In this document: piece by piece, positions 2 to 14,339 of the stretch
How positions within the stretch are numbered: position 1 is the first letter of the stretch
Layout: each line of letters opens with the position of its first letter
Assembly (NCBI GenBank): GCA_947632395.1
Contig: CANRPA010000008.1
Coordinates: forward strand, 1-32,410
DNA from: an uncultured Bacilli bacterium
GTDB lineage: Bacteria > Bacillota_I > Bacilli_A > RF39 > UBA660
Length of the DNA: 32,410 nucleotides
Direction of reading: 5' to 3'
Position numbers and translations under genes: made by a program
The notes under the pieces: generated by a model
The model's input: the letters and a program-made list of their open reading frames with translations, nothing else
What the model was told of the DNA's origin: nothing
Databases searched by the model: none

Positions 2-958
2 GAAACAAATGATGGAGCATACTGTGAAGTAACTATAGAAAATGGATTACAAGTTTCATGTTATTCAAGTACAGAAAAAGAAAATGCAAAACATTACTTT
101 ACAAAATATGTACAAACTGATTCAGAATCTGGAGAAGGTAATGAGCCAATTGTTCAAGAAAGCCCAAAAGATTGGTTTATATATGATGAAGCAACTGGAA
201 CAATAACAGGTTTTTCAGATACATGGAATAGTTTAGAAGATGAAAATAAATATGATATAGTAATTCCATCAACAACACCAAATGGTAATACAATTGTTGA
301 TATAAGGGCAGGCGCATTTTCATCAAGACCATTGACAAGTGTCACAATCCCAGATAGTGTAATTACTATTGGAGATGGCGCATTTTATCAAAACAATCTA
401 ACAAGTTTAGTTTTAGGAGATAATGTTAAAACAATAGGTGGATCTGCTTTTTTAGGTAATAAACTAGAAAGTTTAGATTTAGGGGAAGGTGTTCAAACGA
501 TAAAATCAGGCGCTTTTTATGGTAATAAATTAGAAAGTGTAAAAATTCCAGATAGTATGATTACAATTGAAGCAGGAGCATTTAATCAAAATAATATAAC
601 AAGTTTAGATTTAGGAAATGGAACTCCAACAATAGCAGCTGCTTTTCATAATAATAAACTTGAATATATTAAAATCCCTAGTGGTGTAACATTATTAGGT
701 GGGGCATTTGCCTATAATAATTTAATTACTATCGAATTAGAACCAAATGTTCAAGCAATTGCAAATGGTGCTTTTTATAAAGGTATTACTTCTAACGATG
801 ATATTTCTAATCTAAATTTAGCCCAAATAATCAATAGGACTGGAAAAAGTTTTGATTGGGATAATGTAATAAATAGTTCGACATCAGGGAGATATACATT
901 TGAAACTGGAATTGTTGAAAACAATTATGGTAATGTAACAGTTACAAATACTAATTAA
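2..958 (+). CDS. 3' part of a secreted/surface leucine-rich repeat (BspA-like, LRR_5 type) protein, truncated by the window start
   Basis: The frame of ORF 332..958 is open back to base 2 (ETNDGAYCEVTIENGLQVSCYSS...). About seven ~22-aa repeats of the form LTSVTIPDSVITIGDGAFYQNN / LESLDLGEGVQTIKSGAFYGNK. Stop TAA at 956-958. Confidence 0.85.
   Translation, partial: ETNDGAYCEVTIENGLQVSCYSSTEKENAKHYFTKYVQTDSESGEGNEPIVQESPKDWFIYDEATGTITGFSDTWNSLEDENKYDIVIPSTTPNGNTIVDIRAGAFSSRPLTSVTIPDSVITIGDGAFYQNNLTSLVLGDNVKTIGGSAFLGNKLESLDLGEGVQTIKSGAFYGNKLESVKIPDSMITIEAGAFNQNNITSLDLGNGTPTIAAAFHNNKLEYIKIPSGVTLLGGAFAYNNLITIELEPNVQAIANGAFYKGITSNDDISNLNLAQIINRTGKSFDWDNVINSSTSGRYTFETGIVENNYGNVTVTNTN
332..787 (+). 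repeat. Tandem ~66-bp (22-aa) LRR units, about 7 copies
   Basis: Units begin at 332, 398, 464, 530 and 596, with recurring L-x-S/Y-[IL]-x-[IL]-x...IxxGAFxxN. Confidence 0.85.
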
Positions 959-8766: not shown

Positions 8767-8796
8767 AAGCCTGTACTAAAATATAGTATGGGCTTT
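8767..8796 (+). terminator. Terminator-like hairpin after rplL
   Basis: AAGCCTGTACTA / TAGTATGGGCTT 12-bp stem with two G-U pairs. The T tract is weak (TTTCG). Confidence 0.55.
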
Positions 8797-8862: not shown

Positions 8863-9405
8863 ATGGAAAATAAAACAATATCACAGAAAAAAATATCACA
8901 AGCAATTGAAAGTTCTTTGATTTCTATTGGTGGATTAGCGATACTCCTTTCACCAACAATAGGTTTGATTTCTAATATGATGGAAAATAATGATACACAA
9001 GAAGGTGCAATAAATGTTGACCATATAATAATAGGAAATATAGAATATAAAAAATTAAAAGATTGCTATTTTGTACAAATTGAAAATAGTAATTTAAATT
9101 TAGATGAATTTTATATTTGTGCTAAAAATATGTCAAAAAATGAAGAAAATTCTTTTAAATACACAAATATAATTAATAATGAAACAGTTTTTGAATATTC
9201 ACCTTTAAATAATTTACCAGAGGAAAATGGTAAAAAATTGATAAGTGAAATTCCATTATCTGATTATCTATATGGTTTTAATTTGAAATCAGAGTATACA
9301 ATAGGAGATGTAGAAGATATATTAGAACAAATTAAAGAAAAGAAACAAGAACAAAGCAAAAAATTTATTAAAATAAAATTAAATACAATTGATACAATTA
9401 GTTAA
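8863..9405 (+). CDS. Unknown small protein with one N-terminal TM segment (paralog A)
   Basis: ISIGGLAILLSPTIGLISNMM hydrophobic segment. IGNIEYKKLKDCYFVQIENSNLNLDEFYIC and DYLYGFNLKSEYTIGDVEDILEQIK are shared with the next ORF. ATG at 8863 is preferred over the TTG at 8857. Confidence 0.75.
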   Translation: MENKTISQKKISQAIESSLISIGGLAILLSPTIGLISNMMENNDTQEGAINVDHIIIGNIEYKKLKDCYFVQIENSNLNLDEFYICAKNMSKNEENSFKYTNIINNETVFEYSPLNNLPEENGKKLISEIPLSDYLYGFNLKSEYTIGDVEDILEQIKEKKQEQSKKFIKIKLNTIDTIS

Positions 9406-9421
9406 CGACTGGGGGATTATT

Positions 9422-9973
9422 GTGGAATTTGAAAATAAAATTAAGAATGAAAAGAAAAACAAAAATTCAAAAGAATTTATTGAAACTATTGCACTTGCAT
9501 CAGTATTAGCAACATCTGTTTCATGTGCTTACGGTGCGTTAACAGCATTAGTTTATGACTCATATAAATTAAATTTTACGTATAGTAAAAATGAAAACGG
9601 GGAATATGTTGCTATTGGTACCATAAATTATAAAGAATTAAGTAAATGTTATTTTGTACAAATTAAAAATGATACAACTAATACTGATGAATTTTATGTT
9701 TGTAAAAAAGAGAATTCTAAGTATATAAACATATTGAATAATAAAAATGTCTTTGAATTTAAAAATAATAGCAATAGAAAAATAATTAATGAAAATTTAG
9801 TGGATGATTATTTATATGGATATGATGAAATAAAATCAAAATATACATCAGGAGATATAGAAAATTTGATTGAAAAAATAAAATATGATATAAAACAAGA
9901 AGATAAAGAATTTGTTAAAGTAAAATTTAGTACTAATAATATAACGAAAGTAAATTTAAAAGAATCTAAATAG
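9422..9973 (+). CDS. Unknown small protein with one N-terminal TM segment (paralog B)
   Basis: IGTINYKELSKCYFVQIKNDTTNTDEFYVC and DYLYGYDEIKSKYTSGDIENLIEKIK match the preceding ORF. GTG at 9422 after a GGGGG SD-like tract. Confidence 0.75.
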   Translation: MEFENKIKNEKKNKNSKEFIETIALASVLATSVSCAYGALTALVYDSYKLNFTYSKNENGEYVAIGTINYKELSKCYFVQIKNDTTNTDEFYVCKKENSKYINILNNKNVFEFKNNSNRKIINENLVDDYLYGYDEIKSKYTSGDIENLIEKIKYDIKQEDKEFVKVKFSTNNITKVNLKESK

Positions 9974-9988
9974 TAAAGAAGTGATATA

Positions 9989-10576
9989 ATGTCTTATTAT
10001 TTTGATAAAGAAACTAATATAGAAAGTAAGGAGATTACTACTCATTCAGAGATTAAAGGTAGCCTTTATACTTTTAAAACAGATAATAATGTATTTTCTA
10101 AAAAAGGTTTAGATTTTGGTACTAGAACTTTATTAGAAAATATAGATATTAAAAATATTAATGGTGATATTCTAGATTTTGGATGTGGTTATGGACCTAT
10201 TGGGATATATATAGCAAGTAATACATCCTCAAATGTAGATATGGTTGATATAAATGTTAGAGCGCTCAATCTTGCTAGAGAAAATGCTAAAATAAATGGG
10301 ACAAGTGTTAATATATTTGAAAGTGATATATATAGTAATATTACTAAAAAATATGATTATATAGTAACTAATCCACCTATTAGAGTAGGTAAAGAAATAT
10401 TATATAAAATATTAATAGGTGCTAGGGAACACTTAAAAAAAGAAGGACATTTAATATTTGTAATAAATAAAGATCAGGGTGCTAAAAGTACTATGAAAAA
10501 TATGGAAGAATATTATAACGTAAAATTAATTAAAAAAAATAAAGGATTTTACGTAATTGATTGTCAAAAATGTTGA
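9989..10576 (+). CDS. Class I SAM-dependent methyltransferase (RsmC/YbxB-like)
   Basis: ILDFGCGYGPIGIYIAS motif I, VTNPPIRVG catalytic motif. Classic Firmicutes position before rpoB. Ends in TGA. Confidence 0.9.
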   Translation: MSYYFDKETNIESKEITTHSEIKGSLYTFKTDNNVFSKKGLDFGTRTLLENIDIKNINGDILDFGCGYGPIGIYIASNTSSNVDMVDINVRALNLARENAKINGTSVNIFESDIYSNITKKYDYIVTNPPIRVGKEILYKILIGAREHLKKEGHLIFVINKDQGAKSTMKNMEEYYNVKLIKKNKGFYVIDCQKC

Positions 10577-10601
10577 CATATTGATTGAAATAGAGTAAAA
10601 T
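10573..10601 (+). promoter_or_regulatory. Promoter for rpoB, overlapping the methyltransferase stop codon
   Basis: TTGACA (10573-10578), 17-bp spacer, TAAAAT (10596-10601). Confidence 0.65.
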
Positions 10602-10673
10602 TATAAATTGGCGGCATATATTATTCTGCTAAATATGTGCTTACTAAAAAAATATAGTTTATGGGGTGAAAAA

Positions 10674-13600
10674 GTGGCTTATACAGTTAAAAAATTCGGT
10701 GATTACCGTGAAAGAAGAAGTTATGCAAAAACTAAAAATGCAATAGAACTCAATAATTTATTAGAGATTCAAAAAAAGTCATATGATTGGTTTATGACTG
10801 AAGGAATAAAAGAAGTATTCGATGATATTTTTCCAGTTGAAAGTTTTACTGGAAATTTAACACTTGAATTCGGAGAATATTCTTTTGAGGAGCCAAGATA
10901 TTCAATTAAAGGTTGCAAAGATAGATATGCAACTTATGCAGCACCTTTAAAAGTACAAGCAAGACTTTTTAATCAGGAAACTGGCGAAGTTAAAGAGCAA
11001 GAGATTTATTTAGGTGATATGCCTATTATGACTGATAGTGGTACATTTATAATTAATGGTGCAGAACGTGTTATAGTATCACAGTTAGTTCGTTCACCAA
11101 GTGTTTATTTTTCAAGAGAAATAGACAAAAAAAATGGCAAACATATAATTACTTCACAAGTAATTCCAACTCGTGGAACATGGCTTGAATATGAAACAGA
11201 TGCAAGAGATGTTATTTACTGTCGTATCGATAGGACACGTAAAGTACCAGTAACAACACTACTTCGTGCATTAGGACTTTCAAGTGATGCTGATATAGTT
11301 GATTTATTTGGTGAAGATGACTATATTATGCGTACTATTGAAAAAGATTCAAATAAAAATACAGATGAATCATTAATAGATATACATTCTAAATTGAGAC
11401 CAGGTGAACCTAGCACATTAGATAGTGCTAAAAATCAATTAATATCTAGATTTTTTGATTCATTTAGATATGATTTAGCTAAAGTAGGACGTTATAAATT
11501 TAACAAAAAATTAAATATCATAGATAGATTATATAATACTATACTTGCTGAAGATATTAAAGTTAATGGAGAATTAAAATATGAAAAAGGAACTTTAGTA
11601 ACTAAAGAAGTATTAGAAGGTTTAAAACCTATAATGGCAGAAGGTTATGGTGTTAAAGAAGTATTAATTAATAATGAATTAGATACTTATAATAAAGTAC
11701 AGATAGTTCATGTTTATTCTAAGAATAACCCAGAAAAAATTGTTAAAGTTATAGGTAATGATCAAAGTATTACTGAAAAGAGACTTACAATTTCTGATAT
11801 ATATGCATCAATTTCTTATTATTTAAATTTACATGAAGGTATTGGTTCTTATGATGAAATTGATCATTTATCAAATCGTCGTGTAAGACAAGTAGGAGAA
11901 CTATTACAAAATCAATTTAGAGTAGGTGTTTCTCGTATTGAAAGAGTTATAAGAGATCGTATGAGTACTCAAGAACTTGAGGAAGTAACACCAAAAACTT
12001 TAATCAATATTAGACCACTTACAGCAGCTATTAAGGAGTTCTTTGGTTCAAGTCAATTATCTCAATTCATGGATCAAACAAATCCAGTTGCAGAACTTGC
12101 AAATAAACGTCGTTTATCAAGTCTTGGACCTGGTGGACTTTCAAGAGATAGAGCAGGAATGGAAGTACGTGACGTAAATCCATCACACTATGGTAGACTT
12201 TGTCCAATTGAATCTCCAGAAGGACCAAATATAGGACTTATAACTGCTTTAGCTAGTTATGCAAGAGTTGATGATTATGGATTTATTATGACTCCATATA
12301 GAAGAGTAGAAAATGGTCATTTAACAGATGATATAAGATATATGACAGCTGATGAAGAGTTAGATTATCATATATCACAAGCAACAGATAAAATAGATGA
12401 AAATAATAATTTTATAGAAAAAATAGTACCTGTACGTTTCCGTGGTGAAAACATTATGGTAAATAGTAGTGATGTTGATTATATTGACGTATCAAGTCAA
12501 CAAGTATTTTCAATTACTACAGCAGGAATTCCATTCCTTGAACATGATGATGGTAAACGTGCCCTAATGGGTTCTAACATGCAACGTCAAGCAATTCCAC
12601 TTCTAAAACCAGAAGCACCTATCGTAGGTACTGGTATAGAAGCAATAAGTGCTAGAGATAGTGGCGCTGTTGTAATATCAAAAGCTGATGGTGTCGTTGA
12701 TTATGTCGATGCAAGAAAAATTCATGTTAAAACTAAAGGTGGTATGGATACATATTACTTAAATGACTTTGAGAGAAGTAACGCAGGTACTTGTTATCAT
12801 CAAAGACCTATTGTTAGAGTAGGAGATGTAGTTAAAAAAGGTCAAGTTATAGCAGATGGTCCAGCAACAGATATGGGAGAAATGGCTCTTGGTAGAAATG
12901 TAACAGTAGCATTTATGAACTTTAATGGATATAACTATGAAGATGCTGTTATCCTAAATGAAAGACTTGTTCGTGATGATGTTTATACATCAATACATAT
13001 TCAAGATTATCAAATTGAGTGTAGAGATACTAAACTAGGACCAGAGGAATTTACAAGAGATATTCCAAATGTAAGTGAAGAAGCTCGTAAGAATTTGGAT
13101 GAAAATGGTTTAATACGTATAGGAACAGAAGTTCATGATGATGATATATTAGTAGGTAAAGTAACTCCAAAAGGAATGGCAGAACTTACTAGTGAAGAAA
13201 AACTATTACATGCTATATTTGGTGAAAAGACTCGTGAAGTAAGAGATACTTCTTTACGAGTACCTCATGGTGGTGAGGGTATAGTTCACGATATAAAGAT
13301 ATTTACAAAAGAAGATACAGATGAACTACCAAGTGGAGTTTCAAAAATAATTCGTGTATATATTGCACAAAAACGTAAAATAACAGTAGGAGATAAAATG
13401 GCTGGACGTCATGGTAATAAAGGTGTTATTTCACTTGTACTTCCATCAGAAGATATGCCTTATTTAGCAGATGGTACACCAATAGATATTATGCTTAACC
13501 CACTAGGAGTTCCTAGCCGTATGAATATAGGACAGATACTTGAAATGCATTTAGGTGCAGCTGCTAAAAAACTTAATATTCATGTAGCAACTCCAGTATT

Positions 13601-14339
13601 TAGTGGAGCAAACAGACAAGAAATAATAGATGCTTTAAAAGAAGCTGGAATAGATGAAGATGGAAAGACAGTATTATATGATGGACGTACTGGAGAACCA
13701 TTTGATAATCGTATTAGTGTTGGTGTTATGTATATGATTAAATTACACCACATGGTAGATGATAAATTACATGCGCGTTCAACAGGACCATATAGTATGG
13801 TAACTCAACAACCATTAGGTGGTAAAGCACAATTTGGTGGTCAAAGATTTGGAGAAATGGAAGTTTGGGCACTTTATGCTTATGGTGCAGCACATGTTCT
13901 TCAAGAAATGATGACAATCAAGTCTGATGACGTAGTTGGTCGTGTTAAAGTCTATGAATCATTAGTTAAAGGAACCCCAATACCACAACCAGGTATTCCA
14001 GAAAGTTTTAGAGTTTTAATAAAAGAATTCCAAGCTCTTGGACTTGATATAACTGTATTAAATGAGCAAGGAAATTTTGTAGAACTTAAAGATTTAGAAG
14101 AAGCAGAAAAATTAGAAAATCCATTAGAAAAGAAAGCAGAAAAAGTAGAAGCTAAACTAATTGGAGATGAATCATCAGATGAAGTATTTGAAGATTATGA
14201 AGATACTATGGATGATGAAGATGAAAATGAAAATTATGAAGATTATGAAGATACTATGGATAACGAAGATGAATTTGAGGAAAATGACTTAGATATTATC
14301 GATGACATAGATGAAAATGTAGGGGAGGATGAGGATTAA
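10674..14339 (+). CDS. rpoB: DNA-directed RNA polymerase subunit beta
   Basis: [68 protein letters not shown] and [18 protein letters not shown] start at 10674 after GGGGTG; the ORF-track start at 10608 is in the 5' UTR. Confidence 0.97.

Follow-up and report, generated by a model that had tools for sequence, protein, structure and literature searches.

An orphan protein family of uncultured gut Bacilli in a variable slot between rplL and an rsmC-type methyltransferase gene

The rplJL-rpoBC cluster is usually treated as almost fixed, and in E. coli its rplL-rpoB attenuation involves a hairpin between rplL and the downstream genes. Departures from this order are nevertheless on record: in the Lactobacillaceae, nrdHEF was inserted between rplL and rsmC (event F37; Brandis 2021, PMC8046335), a lineage event that involved known metabolic genes and after which rplL and rsmC in some cases became fully separated. 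Novel gene families of uncultivated prokaryotes have likewise been catalogued as FESNov families (Rodriguez del Rio et al. 2023, PMC10849945), the criterion being exclusivity to uncultivated taxa together with strong purifying selection. Few-gene insertion at rplL-rsmC in Bacilli and orphan families from uncultivated taxa are therefore already known (PMC8046335, PMC10849945). What is new here is one such family, which we call X, together with the fold predicted for it and the repeated use that a single genus makes of this junction, which is flanked on either side by conserved elements.

The window, by which we mean the whole 32,410-nucleotide stretch of DNA analysed, carries two adjacent genes, A (8863..9405, ATG at 8863, 180 aa) and B (9422..9973, 183 aa), arranged head to tail on the forward strand, which also carries the flanking genes and the leader, hairpin and promoter-like elements described below. 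They lie between rplL (L7/L12; 8378..8749, identified from its ORF and sequence) and an rsmC/ybxB-type methyltransferase gene (9989..10576), identified by its place in the rplL-rsmC order known from Bacilli (PMC8046335), and upstream of rpoB (10674..14339), whose probable GTG start at 10674 has a start motif conserved in alignment. The end of rpoB (14100-14339) encodes a long acidic tail in which the motif EDYEDTMD(D/N)EDE recurs, and a leucine-rich-repeat surface-protein-like ORF lies near the left end of the window (332-958). The A stop codon is 16 bp from the GTG at 9422, most likely the start of B and preceded by GGGGG, and the B stop codon is 15 bp from the methyltransferase ATG.

A and B share 63 of 156 aligned residues (40%; 102 bits, E=1e-32 in a single BLASTP comparison), far beyond chance, and on this alignment are paralogues, as an earlier note on this DNA had proposed for two neighbouring ORFs of about 180 aa. 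The shared motifs listed in that note are present. Its statement that the two had diverged elsewhere was too narrow: the duplicates have diverged in sequence, and their homology spans the entire soluble domain, some 110 residues after one N-terminal hydrophobic segment. That each protein has a single such segment is borne out by hydropathy, the best 17-residue mean being 2.0 in A (from residue 20) and 1.7 in B (from residue 28). These most hydrophobic 17 residues are the transmembrane (TM) segments predicted by hydropathy only, at residues 20-36 of A (8920..8970) and 28-44 of B (9503..9553). For A, an N-in, C-out topology is suggested by the basic N-terminus and acidic C-flank. The segment of B contains a Cys in SVSC and lacks a canonical lipobox; both proteins fail the lipobox test ([LVI][ASTVI][GAS]C plus signal peptide), and we file them as TM-anchored relatives of lipoproteins. 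No further X copy besides A and B was found in the genome bin (92.6% complete), also when the later domain profile was used.

We define the X family as proteins with a C-terminal domain alignable over its strands and the YL...(K)xxYT..D(I/V)..L...I helix region, in an open frame. A and B match profile A2 at E=7e-43 and 1e-39 and profile A3 at 1e-27 and 1e-23, both proteins being among the profile rows. A contig scan seeded with short peptides of protein A yielded zero relatives, because the family diverges too fast. Among 58 relatives there is one clear homologue of A, a single-copy gene in the same place in a congener (G010), while profiles built from three and then 19 sequences recover more members within the same taxonomic family. 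The 19-sequence profile hits 36 of 386 genomes at E<=0.001, a few of these matches falling inside long unrelated ORFs. Weak matches inside longer or unrelated ORFs (L006, L007, L020-L022, L024, L026 and similar) were left out of the X counts, and the longer proteins (267-740 aa) to which an iterated HMM on fetched ORFs drifted were removed by hand. In a class-wide sample of 395 genomes, all convincing matches fall inside one family of uncultured Bacilli; the named relatives of the methyltransferase are likewise metagenome-assembled genomes of uncultured Bacilli, several of them from the 'Lapin' series. A and B had no match in Pfam, NCBIfam, PHROGs or PADLOC, none being reproducible over 19 members, and the best hit of X in a PDB sequence search had E=0.22. 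A PepSY-like appearance of the strand pattern, judged by eye, was rejected as unsupported in Pfam. On these searches, X is an undescribed, fast-evolving family, all its convincing members coming from a single group of uncultured gut Bacilli.

The X domain of A as modelled by AlphaFold2 (9013..9402; mean pLDDT 84, pTM 0.74) has five strands and two short helices, with a long helix at its C-terminus. Foldseek searches of the PDB gave best E values of 0.89 for full-length A and 0.74 for the domain model, nothing reaching E<=0.001, and viral structure models contained no convincing match to the A model. The absence of a fold match in the PDB carries little weight for so small a domain. Neither profile search nor Foldseek thus linked the pair to a characterised family, in agreement with the earlier description of these proteins as unknown.

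Classified by regular expression and hydropathy, 31 X members comprise 18 with a lipobox and hydrophobic core, seven with a TM anchor, the group in which A and B fall, and six without an anchor. The script's 18 lipoboxes become 19 by eye, as G132 has an LTGC just below the hydropathy threshold and is scored anchorless. The anchorless members include G117, G395, G243 and a fusion protein in G368, which indicates that the X domain is not always extracytoplasmic. With a lipobox in over half of the homologues, the extracytoplasmic domain suggested earlier is probable for A and B. The family thus resembles Gram-positive lipoproteins in that over half of the homologues of the pair carry a signal peptide and lipobox, but A, B and the homologue in G010 are TM-anchored and lack a canonical lipobox, and the X domain matches no known lipoprotein family. 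The two Cys that had been singled out are shared by A, B and the orthologue in G010, but the family at large does not conserve them, and a disulfide between them was dropped as a defining feature for that reason. Across 30 members not one residue is invariant, an argument against a conserved catalytic site. In G163 (L041 125-1105), one ORF seems to hold two X-like regions, the first lipoprotein-type and the second beyond a Ser/Thr-rich linker; a further X gene comes next, and after it rny.

In the comparison of the window genome (G000) with G010, X has a dN of about 0.5 against 0.11 for the methyltransferase (NG86), so that X is clearly the faster-evolving of the two. Apparent dS is 0.77 and 0.65, respectively (NG86), values that are unreliable because third codon positions are about 90% A+T (10% GC3). 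The resulting dN/dS of X, at saturated sites, is about 0.6 (NG86). By description, X is like the FESNov families in being without database match, present in several species and, here, found in uncultured genomes only; it differs in that purifying selection on it is weak rather than strong, by a rough test that uses this ratio at saturated sites. The X tree is poorly resolved, so gain and loss are indistinguishable in it; members from the same site tend to group, those from the rplL slot do not, and support is low.

In the window, 1242 nt separate rplL from the methyltransferase gene, and both flanks are collinear. The arrangement is that of an rplL-rsmC insertion, with collinear ancestral neighbours and extra genes between them over less than 10 kb. 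As the earlier note had suggested, such an insertion is unusual: 61 of the 70 scored relatives outside the genus have no inserted ORF, the gap usually being 44-90 bp, and the remaining nine hold unrelated genes. Within the genus, 10 of 14 congeners have an occupied slot (Fisher p=2e-5 against 9/70, ignoring phylogeny). X is present in G000, G010 and G008; in G003 it is joined by Y, also an orphan family, whose occurrence is scattered (38 of 272 genomes). Y is found in G002, G005 and G015, and Z, which is related to a many-copy family of genus g71, in G007, G009 and G014; G001, G004, G011 and G006 have no ORF there. The closest relatives of G008, whose slot is occupied, are G011 and G004, whose slots are empty. 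The junction spans 75-1242 nt within the genus, while six other junctions from nusG to rpoC are nearly constant, with the exception of a nusG-rplK insertion in G005, one being present in the outgroup G088 too. The rplL-methyltransferase junction is therefore a variable slot that turns over within the genus, and the insertion inferred in the earlier note is one state of it. Event F37 is alike in using the same junction, with few genes inserted between rplL and rsmC in a collinear cluster; it differs from the present case, in which members of several orphan families take turns within a single genus and the flanks remain collinear.

Several other contents of this region were observed. The Z relatives of the g71 genomes G088 and G220, with at least 17 matches listed in each, are often ORFs of 300-490 aa and look like pilin-type surface proteins. 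G088 also carries, in the same cluster, two related ATPase-like genes (L044 329-1528 and 4293-5525), starting MFIREKYLSKMRGFYHTESLIKIIYGMRRSGKSVIL and MMYNMRRGDNMLVRENYLARIRGFYNSDLIKILVGIRRCGKSVIL, one upstream of rplK and the other in the rplL slot beside X. In two other genera (L130 and L132) the slot holds pairs of small ORFs, of 126 and 91 aa and of 123 and 83 aa, with a by-eye likeness to accessory proteins of type VII secretion effectors.

X itself is not tied to rpoBC. It occupies the rplL-methyltransferase slot in G000 (two copies), G010, G008, G003, G088, G313 and G368, where it is fused to a longer N-terminal region (352 aa), and relatives occupy some ten further sites, most of them within operons for translation, repair or transcription. 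By our reading of the translated neighbouring ORFs, these are ychF-rpsF, hisS-aspS, uvrC-mutL, between two U32 peptidases, truA-rplM, nusA-infB, miaA-mutS, ileS, rny and rsmD; the ychF-rpsF, hisS-aspS and U32 sites are common to two or more genera. The earlier note had named occurrence at scattered unrelated loci as what would speak against a lineage-specific insertion into this operon, and X does occur at many such loci: restriction of the family to a lineage holds, and a special link to rplL-rpoB does not. The pair is real and its neighbourhood unusual, but proteins of this kind occur outside rplL-rpoB as well.

The slot is bracketed by two conserved elements, downstream of the autoregulatory L10 leader that precedes rplJ-rplL (Rfam RF00557; 7729..7844; cmscan 63.2 bits, gathering score 44). 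Directly 3' of rplL, at 8767..8795, is a 12-bp hairpin, AAGCCTGTACTA-loop-TAGTATGGGCTT, present in every congener examined and in many other genera. Over 44 sequences, 95.6% of cells are paired and 7 of the 12 pairs show changes on both sides, values that 0 of 500 shuffled controls reach; the hairpin has no match in Rfam. The U-tract downstream of it is interrupted, so that the hairpin is no canonical terminator, and we regard it as a candidate attenuator-like or processing element. The E. coli attenuation hairpin lies at the same place, but the two differ in sequence and flanking genes, and here only covariation points to a function. On the other side, before rpoB, is a sigma-A-type promoter-like sequence, TTGACA-17-TAAAAT (10573..10601; 11/12 consensus match), with the methyltransferase stop codon TGA inside its -35 hexamer in the window. 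It recurs in 24 aligned genomes, whether the slot is empty or occupied, with TTGACA near-invariant (TTGACT in three). A possible stem, GCATATAT...ATATGTGC, follows it in the rpoB leader, within the 10573-10613 region. The bracketing of the slot by hairpin and promoter-like sequence could explain its tolerance of insertions.

The placement of X invites a functional reading, in which A and B are membrane-tethered modulators of the production of L12, the ribosome or RNA polymerase. The many copies in translation, repair or transcription operons, at several sites common to two or more genera, are what one would expect of such modulators, but the neighbours of X differ widely, the slot is empty in close relatives and filled by the unrelated Y and Z in others, and the export or lipid-anchor signals of most members would place the domain away from ribosomes. 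The apparent neighbourhood enrichment, moreover, concerns small genomes that are rich in just such operons, and we consider this reading improbable. Slightly less credible still is that X, Y and Z are the cargo of a mobile or recombination-driven system for which the junction is an integration site. Patchy presence, unrelated cargo in closely related genomes and the scatter of X loci would fit, but the slots of the genus showed no integrase, transposase, tRNA or phage gene, and protein A, the sole query, had no match in phage or plasmid records. Third-codon-position base composition also equals that of the genome, and the cargo fits closely into the space from the hairpin to the methyltransferase start.

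An equally slim chance attaches to A and B being ordinary orphan ORFs under relaxed constraint, recent, decaying and with no selected function. Their fast divergence, with a dN/dS near 0.6, the loss in sister species, and a G380 homologue riddled with stop codons all point that way; against this, frames are open over some 30 homologues that share a confidently predicted fold, dN/dS is below 1, and anchors and domain architecture are maintained across genera.

We suggest that A and B are most plausibly, and on balance probably, tandem duplicates of the lineage-restricted X family, carried along as passengers by the rplJL-rpoBC cluster, in a slot that is permissive. Transcription from the rplJL promoter would leak past the hairpin, so that A, B and the methyltransferase would be made at a reduced level, while rpoBC would be served by a promoter of its own; the slot could then gain and lose genes without disturbing the supply of L12 or RNA polymerase. 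The X domain would lie on the outer side of the cytoplasmic membrane, tethered there by a lipid or TM anchor. That it is a small surface binding or shielding module and not an enzyme is a tentative suggestion, prompted by the lack of invariant residues over 30 members. A bolder and rather unlikely extension is that the slot, set between a readthrough hairpin and an independent rpoBC promoter, is an insulated expression site from which rapidly changing orphan surface proteins are displayed in amounts that follow the growth rate, with X a new small fold engaged in surface conflict, for example through phage or host-molecule binding.

This work defines, in uncultured gut Bacilli, a new orphan family whose fold is predicted with confidence. 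One junction of the rplJL-rpoBC cluster changes its content between close relatives while the neighbouring junctions stay as they are, and the two conserved elements around the slot offer a testable reason, namely that rpoBC may be transcriptionally independent of whatever is inserted there.
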